From an uncultured delta proteobacterium (lineage in GTDB: Bacteria > Desulfobacterota > Desulfobulbia > Desulfobulbales > Desulfurivibrionaceae), in assembly GCA_903869265.1 (NCBI GenBank), contig CAIPYE010000014.1, positions 186,001 to 250,000 on the forward strand: 64,000 nt of DNA. The letters are read 5' to 3'. This document shows positions 1 to 9,028 of this stretch, in pieces (the first letter of the stretch is position 1; every line of letters starts with the position of its first letter). The position numbers were made by a program, and so were the translations under genes. The notes under the pieces were generated by a model. The model saw only the letters and a list, made by a program, of their open reading frames with translations. It had not been told where the DNA came from and searched no databases.

Positions 1-630
1 GACGCTGAGCTGGTCGGCTTTGTCCGCATCTATGTGCGCAAGCTTAACGATCTGCTGGATCGCCACATGGATCAAGTGCCGCAGGACAGCATCAAGAACA
101 AGCTGATTCGCGACTTCTTCGACACCCTGCGCCCGGAGTATGGCGACACGGTAATCAACCGGGCTCAGGCCTTTCTCAAGGCGGTCAAGGAGATCGTCAA
201 ACGAAACTTCTCCCCCAAGTATTTCTACCGCACCTCGGAGATCATCGAAGAAGCCCGCGGGCTGGGGGCGGGGGTGGTCATTCCCCATCCGGAGCAGTTC
301 TGGCCCATCCTCCTGGCCGACTATGACGTGGATGGCTATGAGGTCTGGAACCCCCAGTCCTGGGAGTACACTGATTTTCTCATCACCGTGCTCAACCGGA
401 AAAATCGGGAGGCCGGCCCATCGACAAAACGTCTGCTGGTTTTCATGGGGGACGACACCCACATGAGCGAGAAGACCCGATCTCCGCATGAACGCGATCA
501 CTTCAAGGCCTCCCGGGAGATCGGGGTGCAACCGCCCTGGAGTGACCAGGCCATCCGCAAGAAGCTGGTGGTGGCCCACATGGACAAACACGATGTAATG
601 GAGGAATACAGGACGAGACTGGCAGGATGA
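1..630 (+). CDS. C-terminal part of a PHP-like protein (5' end outside window)
   Basis: The reading frame is open from base 1, so the start lies upstream; about 209 residues are visible. The sequence contains VVIPHPEQFWPILL and MGDDTHMSE, His/Asp-rich segments reminiscent of the metal-binding strands of PHP-type phosphoesterases, and it ends in a charged helical tail. It lies 53 bases before the amphi-Trp gene on the same strand, so it may be the preceding gene of the GAK operon. No complete domain can be defined from this fragment. The PHP assignment is tentative and an uncharacterised metal hydrolase is equally possible. Confidence 0.45.
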   Translation, partial: DAELVGFVRIYVRKLNDLLDRHMDQVPQDSIKNKLIRDFFDTLRPEYGDTVINRAQAFLKAVKEIVKRNFSPKYFYRTSEIIEEARGLGAGVVIPHPEQFWPILLADYDVDGYEVWNPQSWEYTDFLITVLNRKNREAGPSTKRLLVFMGDDTHMSEKTRSPHERDHFKASREIGVQPPWSDQAIRKKLVVAHMDKHDVMEEYRTRLAG

Positions 631-683
631 CCCAGGATTGTATCTGTTGAGGCTTTTCAGGAAACCACTAAACCGTTCGAGGT

Positions 684-962
684 ATGAATATGTCCACCAA
701 GAAATTTGACTACGAATCATTGCAGGACGGCCACTCCATCAAGACCTATCTGGTCTCCCTGATCGACTCCATCGAGAAGGGACGCATCATCCTCAAGTCC
801 AACGGGGACGAAATGGCCATGCGGGTAGGGGATCTGATGAAATTTTCAGTCCAGGCCAAGAACAAGGACGGGCAAAACAAGCTTTCCATAAAACTATCCT
901 GGTCGGAGATCAAGCCTGTCATCAAAGACGAACGCTCTTCCTCCATGAGCATCGGATCATAG
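684..962 (+). CDS. amphi-Trp domain protein (GAK-associated)
   Basis: A 92-residue soluble protein with the amphi-Trp layout: a helical first half (DGHSIKTYLVSLIDSIEKG), a strand pair (RIILKSNGDEM) and a closing strand KLSIKLSW. Established knowledge: the amphi-Trp family (TIGR04354) is a small protein found repeatedly beside the HprK-related kinase, ATP-grasp and CofD-related genes of the GAK system, with no known biochemical role. Inference: its size and position suit a substrate or carrier modified by the neighbouring enzymes. ATG 684 or ATG 690 could be the start. The next gene begins 13 bases downstream, indicating an operon. Confidence 0.8.
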   Translation: MNMSTKKFDYESLQDGHSIKTYLVSLIDSIEKGRIILKSNGDEMAMRVGDLMKFSVQAKNKDGQNKLSIKLSWSEIKPVIKDERSSSMSIGS

Positions 963-975
963 TGGTGCAAGAACC

Positions 976-2625
976 ATGCTGACGGCTGCACTCAAGGAAA
1001 ACTTAAGTTTTATGGTTGTCGAGGTTGCCCGGCAACTCGACGATACCGCCGGTGTCCTGACCAGCGGCGAAGTCTCGGCCTTCCCGAAAATCAACAGCCG
1101 GGACGACTACATCGACAATCTGAAAACAGTGATCGAGAACCGCTGTTTCAGCACCTTGAGCGAGGCGAGATCCATTACCCAGCGCGAGAGAGATCGCATC
1201 CAGGCAACCCACACCATCTGCGTCAACCTGGAACGCATCGGCGATTTCGCCGTCAGCGCGGTGGACCAGCTCCATTACCTCAAGAAACAGACCATTCTCC
1301 AGCATTTCGATTATCAGCAGATCTTCGATATTCTCGCCGAGCACCTGCATGTGGTCATCCCGGTGCTCGAAAGCGGCAACATGGGCCAGGCCCTCGCCAT
1401 CTGCCGGGCCGAGAACCAGATCGACGCCATCTATAAGGAAAATTTCGACAAGATCATGGAGGAACTCCGGGGCGGCAAGGAGATCGAAAACCTGATTACC
1501 GTGCTGTTCATCTTCCGGTACCTGGAGCGAATGGGTGACTCGCTGCTCAATATCGGCGAGGCCTTGCTCCTTTCCATTCTGGGAGAGAAGATCAAGATCG
1601 AGCAATTCCAGGCCCTGGAAGAAACCCTGAGCAGATCCGGCGTGCGCACCAATCTGTCTGAAGTGGAGTTTTCCTCCATCCTGGGCAGCCGTTCAGGATG
1701 CCGCATCCGCAAGGTCCAAGGGCCTAATGAGCAACCGCTGATCGCCCCCCAGACGCAGAGCAGCATCTTCAAAGAGGGCAACAAAGAAAAAATCCTGGCC
1801 GAAAAAAACAATCTGGAGCGCTGGAACGAGATATTTCCTGATTTAACCCCCAGACTGTTCAGCCATCAGGAATCGGAGGAGACAGCCTCCCTGCTGGTGG
1901 AATTTCTCCCCGGCCAAACCCTTGAAGCCATAATTCTCAAGGGCGACCCCGACGAGTTGGACATGGTGTGCAAACTGCTGCATGCCACTGTTCTGGAGAT
2001 ATGGCAACGGACCAAAAAAAAGGTCCCGGTCAAGGCCAACTTCATCCCGCAAATCATGTCCCGGATGCACAGCGTTCTCAGTGTGCATCCCGATTTTCAC
2101 CGGGTCCGCCAGGATATTGGTTCCTCGGAGGTCATGCCCACCGAGGAGTTGCTTGAGAAATGCCAGCGCATCGAAGAAAATCTGGCAGCCCCCTTCTCTG
2201 TCTTCATTCACGGCGATTTTAATGTCAACAACATCATCTACAACGCGGTCAAGGGGCGCATACAGCTGATTGATCTCTATCGATCCCGCGAGTCGGACTA
2301 TGTTCAGGATGTGTCGGTATTCATCGTCTCCAACTTTAGACAGCCGGTTTTTAAAACGCACCTGCGTGACCGGCTCAACTGGATCACCCGGGACATGTAC
2401 GAATTAGCCAAGGAATTTGCCGCCCAGCAAGGCGACGAAACCTTCGAGGTGCGCATGGCCCTGGCCCTGGCCCGCTCCTTCTACACCTCAACCCGCTTTG
2501 AGTGGAACAACGATTTTGCCCATGAAATGTTCATGCGTTCCCACTTTCTGCTGGAAAAGGTGCTGGCGCATCAGGACAGCCCATGGCGCACCTTTTCCCT
2601 CCCTTCCAGCATCATGTACTATTGA
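976..2625 (+). CDS. PhoU-domain / aminoglycoside phosphotransferase-like kinase fusion
   Basis: A 549-residue soluble protein joining two folds. Residues 1-205 resemble PhoU: two helical repeats with the signatures NLERIGDF and YLERMGDS, the family's acidic metal-binding pattern. Residues from about 230 resemble the APH/choline kinase fold: the catalytic loop HGDFNVNN starts near residue 412, followed by IDLYRSRESDYVQD, where the metal-binding Asp is expected. The usual glycine-rich nucleotide loop is hard to see, so the N-lobe may be unusual. The gene sits between the amphi-Trp and ATP-grasp genes (13- and 23-base gaps). Inference: a small-molecule or protein kinase belonging to the GAK system; the substrate is unknown. 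Confidence 0.75.
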   Translation: MLTAALKENLSFMVVEVARQLDDTAGVLTSGEVSAFPKINSRDDYIDNLKTVIENRCFSTLSEARSITQRERDRIQATHTICVNLERIGDFAVSAVDQLHYLKKQTILQHFDYQQIFDILAEHLHVVIPVLESGNMGQALAICRAENQIDAIYKENFDKIMEELRGGKEIENLITVLFIFRYLERMGDSLLNIGEALLLSILGEKIKIEQFQALEETLSRSGVRTNLSEVEFSSILGSRSGCRIRKVQGPNEQPLIAPQTQSSIFKEGNKEKILAEKNNLERWNEIFPDLTPRLFSHQESEETASLLVEFLPGQTLEAIILKGDPDELDMVCKLLHATVLEIWQRTKKKVPVKANFIPQIMSRMHSVLSVHPDFHRVRQDIGSSEVMPTEELLEKCQRIEENLAAPFSVFIHGDFNVNNIIYNAVKGRIQLIDLYRSRESDYVQDVSVFIVSNFRQPVFKTHLRDRLNWITRDMYELAKEFAAQQGDETFEVRMALALARSFYTSTRFEWNNDFAHEMFMRSHFLLEKVLAHQDSPWRTFSLPSSIMYY

Positions 2626-2648
2626 CATTCTCCTAAAGAGGTCTTTCC

Positions 2649-3524
2649 TTGAAAAAAATTGGCGTTGTTGGCATTCCTGGCGGCTGGTCCTCCGAAAAGC
2701 TCGCCGATGCGGTTGCGGAACGCACCGGTTTCCGCCTGCTGGTGGATCCGGGTGCATTGCGGCTCGATTTGCCTTCGGGCCGGATCCTGTTCGGCGAGGT
2801 GGAACTCAACTCCCTGGACGGCCTGATCATCAAAAAAATCGGCAAGTACTACTCCCCGGATCTGCTTGACCGGCTGGAGGTCTTCCGTTTTTTGTCCGGG
2901 CAGGGACTGCCGATATTTTCCAACCCCTTGAATATCATCCGGGTGCTGGACCGGCTCACCTGCACCATTACCCTGCAGCTCGCCAACATTCCCATGCCGC
3001 CGCTGACCATCACCGAGGATGTGGATGTGGCCCTTGACGCGGTGGCTCTCTATGGCGAGGCGGTATTCAAGCCCCTTTACTCCACCAAGGCGCGGGGAAT
3101 GATCGTGTTGCGGCCCGACGAGGATACCCGCGCAATCATCGAAGACTATAAAGCCGAGCACCGAATCATGTACATTCAAAAAAAGATCGATCTGAACGGC
3201 CGCGACCTGGGCGTGGTGTTTCTTGGCGGCCAGTACCTCACCACCTACGCCAGAACCACCCGCAACGACTCGTGGAACACCACCACCGCCTCCGGCGGCA
3301 AATATCAGCCCTACGACCCGCCGGAGGAGATCATCGCCTTGGCCCGCAAGGCCCAGGCTCCCTTTGGCCTCGATTTCACCTGCGTCGATGTGGTGGAAAC
3401 CGTCGACGGGCTGCGGGTGTTCGAAGTCTCCGCCTTTGGCGGTTTCCGTGGCATTCAAGAGGCAAGCGGCATTGATGCAGCCCAACACTATGCGGACTAT
3501 GTCTGCGGGAAGGTGGGGGCATGA
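2649..3524 (+). CDS. GAK system ATP-grasp enzyme
   Basis: A 291-residue RimK-like ATP-grasp protein, matching what is known of TIGR04356. Visible elements: an N-terminal Rossmann-like strand (KKIGVVGIPGG), ATP-grasp strands AVFKPLYSTKARG and MYIQKKIDLNGRDLG, a basic loop, TTTASGGKYQPY, and a metal-site strand with FEVSAFGGFRGI. The start is TTG at 2649, supported by an AAAGAGG-like ribosome site just upstream. It overlaps the kinase gene by four bases (ATGA), so translation is coupled. Family members ligate a carboxylate to an amine or thiol using ATP; the substrate in this system is not known. Cytoplasmic. Confidence 0.82.
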   Translation: MKKIGVVGIPGGWSSEKLADAVAERTGFRLLVDPGALRLDLPSGRILFGEVELNSLDGLIIKKIGKYYSPDLLDRLEVFRFLSGQGLPIFSNPLNIIRVLDRLTCTITLQLANIPMPPLTITEDVDVALDAVALYGEAVFKPLYSTKARGMIVLRPDEDTRAIIEDYKAEHRIMYIQKKIDLNGRDLGVVFLGGQYLTTYARTTRNDSWNTTTASGGKYQPYDPPEEIIALARKAQAPFGLDFTCVDVVETVDGLRVFEVSAFGGFRGIQEASGIDAAQHYADYVCGKVGA

Positions 3525-4609
3525 AGGTGACACCCATGGCCCGCCAACAACTGGTGCAGCACATCCGCTCGGAGTTCCCCGCAACCGAACAGCTCATTCT
3601 CGCCTTTGACGACTGCCGGATCGGGGTGCAGACCAATTCCCCCGACCTGACGGATAATCTGCGGGAGTACTTCAGCGATTTTATTTCGGACGGTTCGGCA
3701 TGGGACATGCTGATCACTGCCCATGAAGCGCTGCCGTTGGAACTTCCCCATGTTTTCATGACCAAAGAGCCGGACCCTGGCAAGAACAAGATCAAGGAGG
3801 AGTTTATCGATCTGCCCGACGGTCGTATTGTGCGCAAACGGCTCACCGGCATGGTTTTCGTCTTCGGTAGCGATGACAGCGTGGCCGTCGGACCCTGCCT
3901 GGCAAACGCCAATCAGGTGATCAACTTCATCAACAACCGTTTTATCAGCTGGAAACTCCGGCAGGGCTGCCTGCTGGGCCATGCTGCCGGCATTACTTTG
4001 CATGGCCGTGGCTTGGCCCTAGCCGGGTTCTCGGGCATGGGCAAATCCACCCTGGCCCTACATCTGATGAGCCGTGGCGTGAATTTTATCAGCAATGACC
4101 GGGTGATGATCCGGGAGGATGGCGATGGGCTTTTCATGTACGGGATAGCTAAGCTTCCCCGCATCAATCCCGGCACGGCACTCAACAACCCCGACCTGGC
4201 CAAGGTAATCCCGCCCCAGGACCGGGAGCGCTTTGCCAACCTCGCCACGGAGGAACTCTGGAATTTGGAACACAAATACGACGTGTTCCTCGACCATTGC
4301 TTTGGTCCTGGTCGATTCTCCCTGGCAGCCCCCATGGAGGGGTTGGTGATCCTTAATTGGCAGCGAAACCAGGCACCCACTGTGATTCGTGAGGTGGACA
4401 TCCGGCACCGGCGTGATCTTCTGCCTGCTTTCATGAAATCCGCCGGCCTTTTTTTCCTGCCCGAACATGGCGAGGAGATCGATCATTCCGAGGATGCCTA
4501 TCTGGAGCTTCTCGCAAAAACACGGGTGTTCGAAATCAGCGGCGGCATAAATTTCGAACGGGCCTGCGATGCGTGCCTGGCGATTCTAAGCGAAGGTTGC
4601 GAGCAATGA
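3521..4609 (+). CDS. HprK-related kinase B (GAK system)
   Basis: A 362-residue protein whose C-terminal two thirds resemble the HPr kinase/phosphorylase core: Walker A GFSGMGKST near residue 168, followed by SNDRVMI in the position of the HprK SDD-type motif. The first 150 residues form a separate domain. Established knowledge: TIGR04355 members are HprK homologues encoded beside GAK ATP-grasp and CofD-related genes. No HPr gene is visible here, so the target is probably not HPr. ATG at 3521 overlaps the ATP-grasp stop codon. Confidence 0.85.
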   Translation: MKVTPMARQQLVQHIRSEFPATEQLILAFDDCRIGVQTNSPDLTDNLREYFSDFISDGSAWDMLITAHEALPLELPHVFMTKEPDPGKNKIKEEFIDLPDGRIVRKRLTGMVFVFGSDDSVAVGPCLANANQVINFINNRFISWKLRQGCLLGHAAGITLHGRGLALAGFSGMGKSTLALHLMSRGVNFISNDRVMIREDGDGLFMYGIAKLPRINPGTALNNPDLAKVIPPQDRERFANLATEELWNLEHKYDVFLDHCFGPGRFSLAAPMEGLVILNWQRNQAPTVIREVDIRHRRDLLPAFMKSAGLFFLPEHGEEIDHSEDAYLELLAKTRVFEISGGINFERACDACLAILSEGCEQ

Positions 4610-4634
4610 CGGACGGATTGTCGGGTCTCATCTC

Positions 4635-5828
4635 ATGAAAATCAAGGTACAGAGGGAGATTACCCTGCCGGATCCCGTGAGGGTGGAACTCTACCGCCGC
4701 ACCCCCGAACTGGGGCCGCGGCTTCTCTTCTTCAGTGGCGGCAGCGCTCTGCGCGGGGTGAGTCGGGAACTGATCCGCTATACCCACAACTCCTGCCATA
4801 TCATGACCGCTGTTGATTCCGGGGGCAGCTCGGCCACCCTGCGGAAAGCCTTTTCCATGCCCTCCATCGGCGACATCCGGGCCCGTCTCATGGATCTAGC
4901 CGATCAGAGCGTGCAGGGCAACCCGGAAATGTATCGGCTCTTTGCCTATCGCTTCTCCAAAGAAACGGAACAAGACCCGCTCCTTGAGGAACTACGGACC
5001 ATGGTGACCGGCAGGCACCGGTTGGTATCGGCCATACCCAATCCCTTGCGCAAGATTGTCCGCCATCACCTGAAAATCTTTCTCACCCGGATGCCTCAAG
5101 ACTTTGACCTGCGAGGGGCCAGTATCGGGAATCTGGTGCTTACTGCCGGGTATCTGGACAATGGCCGGCACCTCGACCCAGTGATCTTTCTCTTTTCGAA
5201 ACTAGTCGAGGCGCGGGGCACGGTCCGGCCGGTACTCAACCGCTATCTTCACTTGGGAGCGATGCTTGCCGACGGTCAGGTGGTGGTGGGACAGCACCTG
5301 CTTACCGGCAAGGAAGTTCCTCCCCTGGACCAAAAGATCGTCCACCTCTTTCTGACCATGACAACCTCGGCTACCACCAAGGGCGAGGTATGGCCAAGGG
5401 TACGCGACAAGCTCCCCGAACTGATCCTTTCCGCCCAGCTGATCTGCTATCCCATGGGGAGCTTCTATTCCAGCGTCATCGTCAGCCTGTTGCCGGAGGG
5501 GGTGACCGAGGCCATCCAGGGAAACGTCTGTCCAAAAGTCTATATTCCCAGCATGGGTAAAGACCCGGAGGCAGTTGGTCTGAATCTCATGGATCAGATC
5601 GAAACCCTGCTGCGCTACCTGAAGAAAAACAGGCCTGAGATCCCAACCCAGCAGGTGCTGAACTGTGTCCTCATTGACTCAAAGAATGGAGGATACTCAG
5701 GAGAAGTGGAGCAAGAAAGGCTTGCGGAACTGGGAATTCAGTTGATCGATTGCCCGCTGGTCAGCGAGGAAAGCGCGCCCTATTGCGAGCCCAAGCTGCT
5801 GGTCCCCCTGCTGCTTTCGTTGTCCTAA
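4635..5828 (+). CDS. CofD-related protein of the GAK system
   Basis: A 397-residue homologue of CofD/YvcK-type 2-phospho-L-lactate transferases. The N-terminus has LLFFSGGSALRGVSREL followed by TAVDSGGSSATLRKAF, the family's nucleotide-binding glycine loops. A later stretch (GNLVLTAGYLDNG) matches the CofD region that contacts the acceptor. Established knowledge: TIGR04357 is a distinct CofD branch co-occurring with HprK-related kinase B and the GAK ATP-grasp enzyme; coenzyme F420 synthesis is not implied, and no other F420 gene is present. It follows the kinase by 25 bases. Inference: it transfers a phosphoryl-containing group to an unknown acceptor. Confidence 0.82.
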   Translation: MKIKVQREITLPDPVRVELYRRTPELGPRLLFFSGGSALRGVSRELIRYTHNSCHIMTAVDSGGSSATLRKAFSMPSIGDIRARLMDLADQSVQGNPEMYRLFAYRFSKETEQDPLLEELRTMVTGRHRLVSAIPNPLRKIVRHHLKIFLTRMPQDFDLRGASIGNLVLTAGYLDNGRHLDPVIFLFSKLVEARGTVRPVLNRYLHLGAMLADGQVVVGQHLLTGKEVPPLDQKIVHLFLTMTTSATTKGEVWPRVRDKLPELILSAQLICYPMGSFYSSVIVSLLPEGVTEAIQGNVCPKVYIPSMGKDPEAVGLNLMDQIETLLRYLKKNRPEIPTQQVLNCVLIDSKNGGYSGEVEQERLAELGIQLIDCPLVSEESAPYCEPKLLVPLLLSLS

Positions 5829-5853
5829 CGTGGCCTTAGCCGAAGGGGAAGGG

Positions 5854-6105
5854 ATGGATAAGCAGCACAGCGGGCAAGAACCTGATTTAAAAAGCCTGGA
5901 GCGCATCGTCATTGATCTGGCCGCGCAGTTCCGGGTGGAGCCGGAAACTGTCAGGCCGTTATTGATGCGCGCCTACCAGGATATCAGGGCAGTGGCGGTG
6001 GTCAAGGATTTTGTCTCCATTTTTGCCATGCGCTTGGTGCGTGACCGGTTTTATGGGGATAAGGGGCAGAACAACCGACAAGGGGAACGAGGATTTTGTG
6101 ATTGA
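5854..6105 (+). CDS. DUF3562-like small protein
   Basis: The preferred start is ATG 5854, preceded by AGGGGAAGGG, giving 83 residues; an upstream GTG at 5830 would add eight. The sequence is helical with LERIVIDLAAQFRVEP, then VVKDFVSIFAMRLVRDRF, resembling the DUF3562 pattern in which a helix-turn-helix-sized region is followed by VKDFLPxLxxRRVR. Cytoplasmic, no signal peptide. It lies 25 bases after the CofD-related gene, so it may be the last GAK operon gene, but DUF3562 is not a defined GAK component. Function unknown. Confidence 0.6.
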   Translation: MDKQHSGQEPDLKSLERIVIDLAAQFRVEPETVRPLLMRAYQDIRAVAVVKDFVSIFAMRLVRDRFYGDKGQNNRQGERGFCD

Positions 6106-6376: not shown

Positions 6377-9028
6377 ATGAAAATCCCTGCCTTTCTCAAG
6401 GGGGTTCCCCAAACCCCCACCAAAGAGACGCGCGTCGTCAACCACGACGAACGCGGACTCATCGAGATATGTGTACTTTCCCAACAGGAAGCGCCGACAA
6501 GACTCGGCGTCACTGCCCAAGGACTTGATTCGGAAGAGGCGGCCCGCCGTCTGGACGAATACGGCCCCAATGAGCTGGCCTACGCCGAGCGCTTGGGTTT
6601 CTGGGCGGATATCTTCCGTCGCCTGCGCAACCCCCTGAATGTTCAATTGTTTCTGATCGCCGGTATATCGGGAGCGATCGGCGAACTCAAGTCGACGTTT
6701 ATCGTCAGCGCCATGATCGTTTTGAGTATCGGCTTGTCCTACATCCTGGATCGGCGTTCCGGCCATGCCGTGGAGACGCTGGGCAAGCGGGTGCAATCGC
6801 GCAGCATCGTGCTCCGGGATGGCAAACAAACCGAGATCCCAATCTCGGAGATTGTTCCGGGCGACATCGTCTTGCTCCAGGCCGGCTCCATCGTTCCGGC
6901 TGACCTGCGGTTGCTTTCGGCCAAGGATTTTTTTGTCAGCGAATCGGCGCTGACCGGAGAATCCATGGCCGTGGAAAAGTCCGCTGCCGCCGAAACCTTT
7001 CATGGGCAAAACGTCACGGAATTGGCCAACATCTGTTTCTACGGCACTAATGTCACCAGTGGCACGGCCCACGGCCTGGTGGTCAACACCGGGATGCGGA
7101 CCGCCTTTGGGTCAATCGCCGAAAGCCTTGCCGGACGCCGCGAAGAGACCAGCTTCGACCAAGGGGTGCGTTCCTTCACCTGGCTCATGATCAAATTCAT
7201 GGTGGTTATGGTCTCCGCCGTGTTTTTCATTGTCGGGCTGACCAAGGGAAATTGGACCGAGGCCCTGCTCTTCGGCCTGTCCATCGCCGTGGGCCTCACT
7301 CCGGAAATGCTGCCGATGATTGTCACCGTGAATCTGGCCAAGGGCGCGTTGACCATGGCCAGGAAGAAGGTTATCGTCAAGCGTCTTCCCTCCATCCAGA
7401 ACCTCGGAGCCATCGACATCCTGTGTACGGATAAGACCGGTACCCTTACCCAGGATCGGGTTGTTCTCGAGCAGCATTTGGACATCACCGGGCACAACAG
7501 CGAAGATGTCCTGACCTATGCCTATTTGAACAGCCATTATCAGACAGGGTTGCGCAGCCTGATCGACCGGGCTATCCTCGACTATGCCGTGTTGGACGCC
7601 GAGGCCAACTGCAGGCTGGTGGACGAGTTGCCCTTTGATTTTCAGCGGCGCCGCATGTCTGTGGTGGTGGACTACGAGGACGACCATGTCCTGATCTGCA
7701 AGGGTGCGGTGGAGGAGATTTACGAATGCTGCGGCCACTACCAGATCGGCGATGAGGTTTTTCCTCTCATCCCCATGATCCGCGACAACCTTTTTGAGGA
7801 GGTGGATCGTCTCAACAAGGACGGCTTCCGCGTGCTGGGGGTTGCCTACCAGGAGTTTCCCAGGGCAAAGGCCATCTTTGCCACCACGGACGAGCGTAAT
7901 CTGATCCTGCTGGGCTACATCGCCTTCTACGATCCGCCCAAGACTTCGGCCTTGGAGGCCATCGGGCAGTTGCGGGACGCCGGGGTCAAGGTCAAGGTGC
8001 TTACCGGCGACAACGCCCTGGTCACACGGAAGGTCTGCCGTGACGTATCCTTTGAGGTTGGGAAGATTGTCTCGGGCGCGGAACTGTCCGCGCTGTCCGA
8101 TCTTGATTTCAAACGGGTGGTCGAAGAGGTGGACGTCTTCGTCAAGCTCAGCCCGGCGCAAAAAGAACAGATTGTGCGGCAACTGCGCGGCAACGGCCAT
8201 GTGGTGGGCTTCATGGGAGACGGCATTAACGATGCCCCGGCCCTCAAAGCCGCCGACGTTGGCATCTCCGTGGATTCCGCGGTGGACGTGGCCAAGGAAG
8301 CCGCGGATATCATTCTTCTCGAAAAAAGTCTCCTGGTTCTGGAAGAGGGGATCATCGAGGGCAGGCGGGTTTTTGCCAACATCGTCAAATATATCCGGAT
8401 GGGGGCCAGCTCCAACTTCGGCAATATGTTCAGCGTGGTCGGCGCGAGTTACCTCTTCCCCTTCCTGCCCATGCTGCCGGTGCAGATACTGGTCAACAAT
8501 TTGCTCTATGATTTTTCGCAAACCGGCATCCCCACCGACAATGTGGACCCAGAACTGGTCGCGAAACCCCTGAAGTGGGACATCACCAATATCAAGCGGT
8601 TTATGGTGTTTATCGGACCGATCAGCTCCATTTTCGACTATGCCACCTTTGCCTTGATGTGGTTTTTCTTCGGGTGCAGCGGTTTCAGCAATCCCACGGT
8701 TGCGGCGGCCTCCAAGGAGGGGTTGGCCCAGCTCTTCCAGACCGGCTGGTTTGTGGAATCCCTGCTGACCCAGACCTTGATTGTGCATATCATCCGAACC
8801 AAGCGGATTCCATTTTTCGGCAGCCAGGCCTCCCTGCACATGACGCTGACCACGCTCATCATCATGGCTGTCGCCGTGTGGCTTCCGTATTCGCCGTTCG
8901 CCGAAGGGCTGGGCATGGTGCCGCTCCCGCCTGTGTATTGGCTCTGGATCACGGGGTTCCTGCTGAGCTACTCGGTTATGACCCATTATGTAAAAACGTG
9001 GTTTTTTAATCGCTACGGAGGTGAATAG
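6377..9028 (+). CDS. mgtA: Magnesium-transporting P-type ATPase (MgtA/MgtB type)
   Basis: An 883-residue P3B-type ATPase of normal family length. Motifs: TGES near residue 193 in the actuator domain, DKTGTLT at about 352 with the phosphorylated Asp, and MGDGINDAP near 614 in the P domain. About ten membrane segments are expected, including the MgtA-like segment VGLTPEMLPMIVTVNLAKGA and the C-terminal NNLLYDFSQTGIPTDNVD, which distinguishes MgtA from Ca2+ pumps. It imports Mg2+ across the inner membrane. ATG 6377 follows GAGGTGA. A short ORF lies upstream, and an EIIA-like gene begins two bases after its stop. Confidence 0.93.
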   Translation: MKIPAFLKGVPQTPTKETRVVNHDERGLIEICVLSQQEAPTRLGVTAQGLDSEEAARRLDEYGPNELAYAERLGFWADIFRRLRNPLNVQLFLIAGISGAIGELKSTFIVSAMIVLSIGLSYILDRRSGHAVETLGKRVQSRSIVLRDGKQTEIPISEIVPGDIVLLQAGSIVPADLRLLSAKDFFVSESALTGESMAVEKSAAAETFHGQNVTELANICFYGTNVTSGTAHGLVVNTGMRTAFGSIAESLAGRREETSFDQGVRSFTWLMIKFMVVMVSAVFFIVGLTKGNWTEALLFGLSIAVGLTPEMLPMIVTVNLAKGALTMARKKVIVKRLPSIQNLGAIDILCTDKTGTLTQDRVVLEQHLDITGHNSEDVLTYAYLNSHYQTGLRSLIDRAILDYAVLDAEANCRLVDELPFDFQRRRMSVVVDYEDDHVLICKGAVEEIYECCGHYQIGDEVFPLIPMIRDNLFEEVDRLNKDGFRVLGVAYQEFPRAKAIFATTDERNLILLGYIAFYDPPKTSALEAIGQLRDAGVKVKVLTGDNALVTRKVCRDVSFEVGKIVSGAELSALSDLDFKRVVEEVDVFVKLSPAQKEQIVRQLRGNGHVVGFMGDGINDAPALKAADVGISVDSAVDVAKEAADIILLEKSLLVLEEGIIEGRRVFANIVKYIRMGASSNFGNMFSVVGASYLFPFLPMLPVQILVNNLLYDFSQTGIPTDNVDPELVAKPLKWDITNIKRFMVFIGPISSIFDYATFALMWFFFGCSGFSNPTVAAASKEGLAQLFQTGWFVESLLTQTLIVHIIRTKRIPFFGSQASLHMTLTTLIIMAVAVWLPYSPFAEGLGMVPLPPVYWLWITGFLLSYSVMTHYVKTWFFNRYGGE

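Follow-up and report, generated by a model that had tools for sequence, protein, structure and literature searches.

Organisation of the operon

The window analysed, a stretch of 64,000 nucleotides of DNA from an uncultured delta proteobacterium, opens with seven tightly spaced plus-strand open reading frames, the coordinates of which were confirmed and agree with the preliminary description of seven consecutive genes separated by no more than 53 bases and including an ATGA overlap. Taken in gene order, the intergenic gaps are 53, 13, 23, −4 (ATGA), 25 and 1 bases. The genes present, together with one that lies outside the window, are as follows.

1–630, plus strand: predicted PHP-type metal-dependent phosphoesterase (gene 1), C-terminal 209 aa of 388 aa, 5' truncated by the window
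684–962, plus strand: amphi-Trp protein, 92 aa, core copy (TIGR04354)
976–2625, plus strand: PhoU-APH fusion (PhoU domain plus APH-fold kinase), 549 aa (PF01895, PF01636)
2649–3524, plus strand: GAK ATP-grasp protein (RimK/LysX fold), 291 aa, TTG start (TIGR04356)
3521–4609, plus strand: HprK-related kinase B (HprK-B), 362 aa (TIGR04355)
4635–5828, plus strand: CofD/YvcK-like protein, 397 aa (TIGR04357)
5830–6105, plus strand: small 3-helix-bundle protein, 91 aa, a restricted accessory (NF046112, just under cut-off)
C14:184787–185359, directly upstream of gene 1 and outside the window: XXXCH gene (TIGR04358, 93 bits against a cut-off of 40)

The start of the window thus cuts the operon, gene 1 beginning at C14:185464, 537 bases before it. 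The gene list drawn up previously was sound for the amphi-Trp, PhoU-APH, ATP-grasp, HprK-B and CofD-related proteins, and had missed both the PHP enzyme and XXXCH. A search of the operon and its upstream region against Rfam returned no match. Just downstream, at window positions 6377–9028, lies a gene for a magnesium-translocating (MgtA-type) P-type ATPase (TIGR01524, over cut-off), and ATPases of this type also occur near three other loci of the same kind (L173, L144 and, by similarity and clustering only, L180). Elsewhere, a protein combining a NosL domain with a Phenol_MetA_deg domain is encoded upstream of the operon (L002:4803–6329).

Membership of the GAK system and gene content across loci

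GAK is an already named system, defined by the co-occurrence of its member families. The proposal that this is a GAK-type operon was borne out by profile searches with the relevant NCBIfam models, none of TIGR04354–04357 scoring below its cut-off and all four families in the window exceeding theirs with a margin: amphi-Trp (TIGR04354) 60.2 bits against 31, ATP-grasp (grasp_GAK, TIGR04356) 450.5 against 300, HprK-B (HprK_rel_B, TIGR04355) 547.6 against 200, and the CofD-like protein (CofD_rel_GAK, TIGR04357) 519.8 against 340. With XXXCH included, all five GAK families (TIGR04354–04358) are over cut-off in a single operon, while the small 3-helix protein reaches 24.5 bits against a cut-off of 25 for NF046112. 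Genome-wide, the source genome contains one HprK-B and one amphi-Trp match. Within the library of PMC papers searched, none mentions GAK, amphi-Trp, HprK-related kinases or the TIGR04355–7 numbers. The locus is an ordinary, well-preserved and typical representative of this known system, which is itself uncharacterised; its five models omit the PHP phosphoesterase and the PhoU-APH fusion.

HprK-B was found over cut-off in 7 of 27 genomes of the family, 15 of 243 of the order and 24 of 395 of the phylum, and the neighbourhoods collected from HprK-B genomes and from named contigs yielded 104 distinct GAK loci, 73 of which were well flanked (at least 6 kb upstream and at least 3 kb downstream). 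As labelled in their records, there are loci from Desulfobacterota, Zixibacteria, Nitrospinota, Phycisphaerae and Spirochaetia. Among the 73 well-flanked loci, PhoU-APH and amphi-Trp were each present in 70, ATP-grasp in 69, PHP in 66, CofD in 57, XXXCH in 47 and the small 3-helix protein in 7, so that PHP and PhoU-APH show a constancy equal to or above that of several named GAK members. The comparison of neighbourhoods upheld the expected conservation, the usual order of PHP, amphi-Trp, PhoU-APH, ATP-grasp, HprK-B and CofD recurring in most of these 73 distinct loci, far beyond chance, and amphi-Trp is often present in two copies. Described beforehand as an addition to the operon, the PhoU-kinase fusion has to be regarded instead as a core component, since it is found in nearly every well-flanked locus, in 23 of 24 HprK-B genomes (Fisher p = 1e-30 over 395 genomes that are not phylogenetically independent) and in the smaller cassette described below. 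Similarly, 26 of 29 PhoU-APH genomes have PHP (Fisher p = 4e-35 over the 395 genomes, shared ancestry being ignored). Inter-locus pairwise distances for the five enzymes were correlated (rho 0.33–0.59; 0/200 permutations), a result that fits co-inheritance but which species relatedness alone could also yield.

No conserved exporter or reductase cluster was found among the neighbours of GAK loci, and viral contigs searched with the HprK-B protein contained no relatives. Of the 104 distinct loci, 8 have genes for a phosphate ABC transporter (PstS or PstA, over cut-off) close to the operon, a raw count that includes some related loci. In four loci (L127, L145, L167 and L179), the GAK operon has a PhoU-like gene of PhoU size ahead of it on the same strand, and two of these loci (L145 and L179) also have a pst gene nearby. 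Variation in content was also recorded: L073, L074 and L075 have no CofD and carry a gene of ~300 aa between PhoU-APH and ATP-grasp, the one example tested giving a weak NUDIX match, while in each of three genomes (G448, G509 and G618) the system is split between two loci (L077–L082), both with a copy of HprK-B.

The PHP phosphoesterase and the PhoU-APH fusion

Gene 1 returned no Pfam, NCBIfam or PDB sequence match. An AlphaFold2 model generated from 26 orthologues (pLDDT 88.6) was most similar in Foldseek searches to the PHP phosphoesterases 3e0f/3o0f (BAD_1165) and to RNase AM 9etk (E 5e-6 to 1e-5), with modest TM-scores of 0.38–0.42 by query length that reflect partial-length matches. Eight positions that may serve as metal ligands (HxH, H, E, H, H, DxH) are kept in 82 of 82 orthologues, with the exception of one D in one sequence. 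On the basis of the modelled fold and these predicted metal ligands, gene 1 is predicted to encode a PHP-type phosphoesterase.

The reading frame at 976–2625 matches PhoU (PF01895, 75 bits) and APH (PF01636, 41 bits), and its PDB profile matches are to PhoU 4q25 and APH 4feu. The APH-fold kinase signature of Lys, Glu, HGDxxxxN and Asp is complete in every PhoU-APH sequence, residues K266, E276, H412, D414, N419 and D433 being invariant in 86 of 86. The PhoU domain of the fusion carries the conserved PhoU signature and, as already noted, pst genes occur near some GAK loci; however, unlike PhoU itself, the domain is here fused to an APH-fold kinase, and the fusion scores 84.5 against the PhoU equivalog cut-off of 130.25. 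Two separate stand-alone PhoU proteins over that cut-off are present in the source genome. A PhoU homologue was followed as a lead from the literature; should Dde_2835 encode the 550-aa fusion, fitness data already available would tie GAK to phosphate starvation. The DVU0251–0245 nitrate cluster (PMC4001038) is a different gene set.

Fixed substitutions in HprK-B, ATP-grasp and the CofD/YvcK-like protein

By contrast with the PHP and PhoU-APH proteins, which keep essentially all of the catalytic residues checked, the three enzymes encoded downstream each carry one fixed substitution. HprK-B retains its Walker A motif together with H154, K175 and D193; however, the catalytic His-Lys-Asp-Asp tetrad of HPr kinase/phosphorylase reads His-Lys-Asn-Asp in all 103 sequences, N192 being the position aligned with HprK D178 (L. 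casei numbering). Lasso-peptide precursor kinases are likewise HprK-like. HprK-B resembles both groups in possessing a P-loop region with Walker A, the catalytic His and one Asp, and differs from them in its Asn, all four tetrad residues being needed by the lasso-peptide kinases (PMC9266682). It differs further in its genomic setting, for the source genome (99.2% complete) contains no match to HPr (PF00381), and HPr was therefore rejected as the substrate of HprK-B.

The ATP-grasp protein is clearly RimK-like in fold, its PDB matches including RimK and LysX within a RimK/LysX/MptN-like group. Of the metal-binding positions expected of a RimK-type enzyme, the Asp and Glu are kept (D247 in 97 of 98 sequences, E259 in 98 of 98), but E-x-N is replaced by E-x-S in 97 of 98.

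The PDB matches of the CofD-like protein are exclusively to the YvcK/UPF0052 family, and it resembles YvcK/GlmR rather than F420 CofD; a role as an F420-type transferase is accordingly not favoured. The Asp pair before GGSS, both members of which are catalytic in F420 CofD and the GlmR uridyltransferase, reads D-S in 73 of 73 sequences. The catalytic residues of GlmR are D38 and D39 (PMC13046274), and their placement on this pair is our own reading of the alignment. A second CofD/YvcK-related match in the source genome (G000:C5:44944–46143) scored 103 bits, under the 196-bit cut-off, within a 767-aa frame. In B. subtilis, the yvc region associates YvcK/GlmR with YvcJ, WhiA and Crh. The present gene set is comparable in combining a YvcK-family protein, as identified by PDB profile search, with an HprK-like kinase and a small protein; it differs in having Ser in place of one Asp of the GlmR catalytic pair and a small protein unlike HPr, and no RapZ or WhiA equivalent was seen in the operon.

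Being invariant or nearly so, these substitutions suggest altered rather than decaying chemistry. They also qualify the previous account, in which the operon encoded two kinases together with a ligase-type ATP-grasp and a transferase of phospho-groups: the kinase half of PhoU-APH keeps all six residues checked in every sequence, but HprK-B has exchanged an Asp for Asn and the ATP-grasp an Asn for Ser, while the putative transferase is of the YvcK type with one Asp replaced.

The small proteins

First copies of amphi-Trp (n = 85) share an S-x-Q-D motif (S 94%, Q 95%, D 95%) and a Trp conserved in 100%. The AlphaFold2 model consists of one helix and a four-strand meander and found no structural counterpart in the PDB at E < 1, and an HPr fold was rejected for lack of a structural match. 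In the model, S-x-Q-D is located just before the helix and may thus be structural, serving as a helix cap. Ser12 was considered as the acceptor for HprK-B and set aside, because its conservation among first copies and its replacement in family f94 (see below) fit helix capping equally well. No conserved C-terminal Glu of the LysW kind was noted in amphi-Trp alignments.

The C-terminus of XXXCH matches the C-terminal heme helix of cytochrome c', a class II c-type cytochrome (E 3e-5), and contains an invariant C-H within a conserved C-H-x-x-Y-K pattern. It differs from cytochrome c' in having a single Cys, the first of CxxCH being lost, and in showing no signal peptide evident by eye.

A reduced cassette

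One family, f94, carries a cassette consisting of PHP, amphi-Trp and PhoU-APH. HprK-B was matched in 0 of 37 f94 genomes and PHP in 33 of 37. The short flanks of the 30 fetched f94 loci contain amphi-Trp genes (18) and PhoU-APH genes (17) but no ATP-grasp, HprK-B or CofD; for ATP-grasp and CofD this absence refers to the fetched flanks. In those loci that were opened the three genes sit side by side, and inspection of the kinase and PHP motifs found them intact. The f94 copies of amphi-Trp mostly read F[VI][TS]DP, that is [TS]-D-P, in place of S-x-Q-D. The cassette is called reduced on gene content, and could be either ancestral or reduced. At three loci (L191, L192 and L194) it is flanked by a protein which, by reading, has an acetate kinase-like N-terminus. 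PHP, amphi-Trp and PhoU-APH thus constitute the core of the system, a trio that accompanies the other GAK genes and, in f94, occurs without HprK-B.

Interpretation

The reading that we prefer, at a confidence falling somewhat short of even, is that the operon encodes an intracellular signalling switch in which a kinase with a PhoU sensor and a phosphatase of the PHP type act on or through amphi-Trp, the GAK enzymes adding a second layer. The PhoU domain would act as a sensor of phosphate or metal status. The acceptor phosphorylated by the APH-fold kinase would be either amphi-Trp or a small molecule that amphi-Trp handles, and its phosphate would be removed again by the PHP enzyme. In most loci HprK-B, ATP-grasp and the YvcK/CofD-like protein would form the second layer, either modifying the adaptor further by an altered chemistry or binding a nucleotide or metabolite and so regulating it, and XXXCH would couple the system to a cytochrome c'-like domain. 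This reading is favoured because of the high frequencies of PhoU-APH (70/73) and PHP (66/73), their co-occurrence across genomes and the distance correlation, with its caveat of kinship; because f94 keeps the trio, with motifs intact where inspected, without HprK-B; and because the core enzymes keep the residues checked when the other three are substituted, HPr is absent and Pst genes lie near eight loci. Against it, Pst adjacency extends to just those 8 of 104 loci, S-x-Q-D is perhaps a cap and the f94 motif differs. Moreover, the usual substrates of APH-fold enzymes are small molecules, so that prior expectation does not favour a protein as acceptor. The fuller proposition, that GAK loci represent an undescribed signalling system in which the PhoU-sensor kinase and PHP reversibly phosphorylate amphi-Trp itself while HprK-B, ATP-grasp and the YvcK-like protein, each with its fixed non-canonical residue, carry out a modification for which their parent families are not known, is advanced only tentatively.

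The main rivals to the switch are a biosynthetic pathway and a module of the HprK/YvcK type. The former, which we consider rather unlikely, would have amphi-Trp as a carrier protein comparable to LysW for LysX, the ATP-grasp ligating an amino acid, the kinases activating it, and PHP and the CofD-like protein finishing a phosphorylated metabolite or cofactor. The affinity of the ATP-grasp to RimK, LysX and MptN is consistent with this, as are the small size and frequent duplication of amphi-Trp and the established fact that small molecules are common substrates of APH and CofD folds; however, f94 keeps amphi-Trp, PHP and PhoU-APH with neither ATP-grasp nor CofD seen in the fetched flanks, the LysW-like Glu was not noted, the neighbours offer no conserved exporter or reductase cluster and a PhoU sensor domain would be unexpected in a pathway enzyme. 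The second rival, a shade more doubtful again, holds that HprK-B phosphorylates Ser12 of amphi-Trp and that this adaptor, once phosphorylated, governs both the YvcK-like protein and carbon or envelope metabolism, in the manner of the Firmicute yvcJ-yvcK-crh genes. It draws on the YvcK affiliation of the CofD-like protein, the Walker A, His and one Asp retained by HprK-B, the absence of HPr from the genome, the precedent of a lasso-peptide precursor kinase with the His-Lys-Asp-Asp motif (PMC9266682) and the conservation of S-x-Q-D in first copies but not in f94, which is without HprK-B. That last difference, however, concerns a single lineage in which the replacement motif also contains Ser/Thr; the tetrad Asp required in lasso-peptide kinases is Asn in 103 of 103 HprK-B sequences, Ser takes the place of one Asp of the GlmR catalytic pair in 73 of 73, and the amphi-Trp model has no HPr-like match. 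A redox, NO or heme-responsive system, with the cytochrome c'-like, single Cys-His XXXCH protein as sensor and the enzymes transmitting its state, is in our judgement very improbable: the heme-helix match (E 3e-5), invariant C-H and C-H-x-x-Y-K pattern argue for it, but CxxCH is without its first Cys, inspection by eye shows no evident signal peptide, and 26 of the 73 well-flanked loci have no XXXCH.

What is new here is the revised core, the reduced cassette and the fixed active-site substitutions, which together make the biochemistry of the system testable. The fixed substitutions warn against assuming HprK, CofD or RimK chemistry for the three name-giving enzymes, and the notion of a GAK operon with an extra kinase is replaced by a testable claim, that of a constant core of PHP, amphi-Trp and PhoU-APH.
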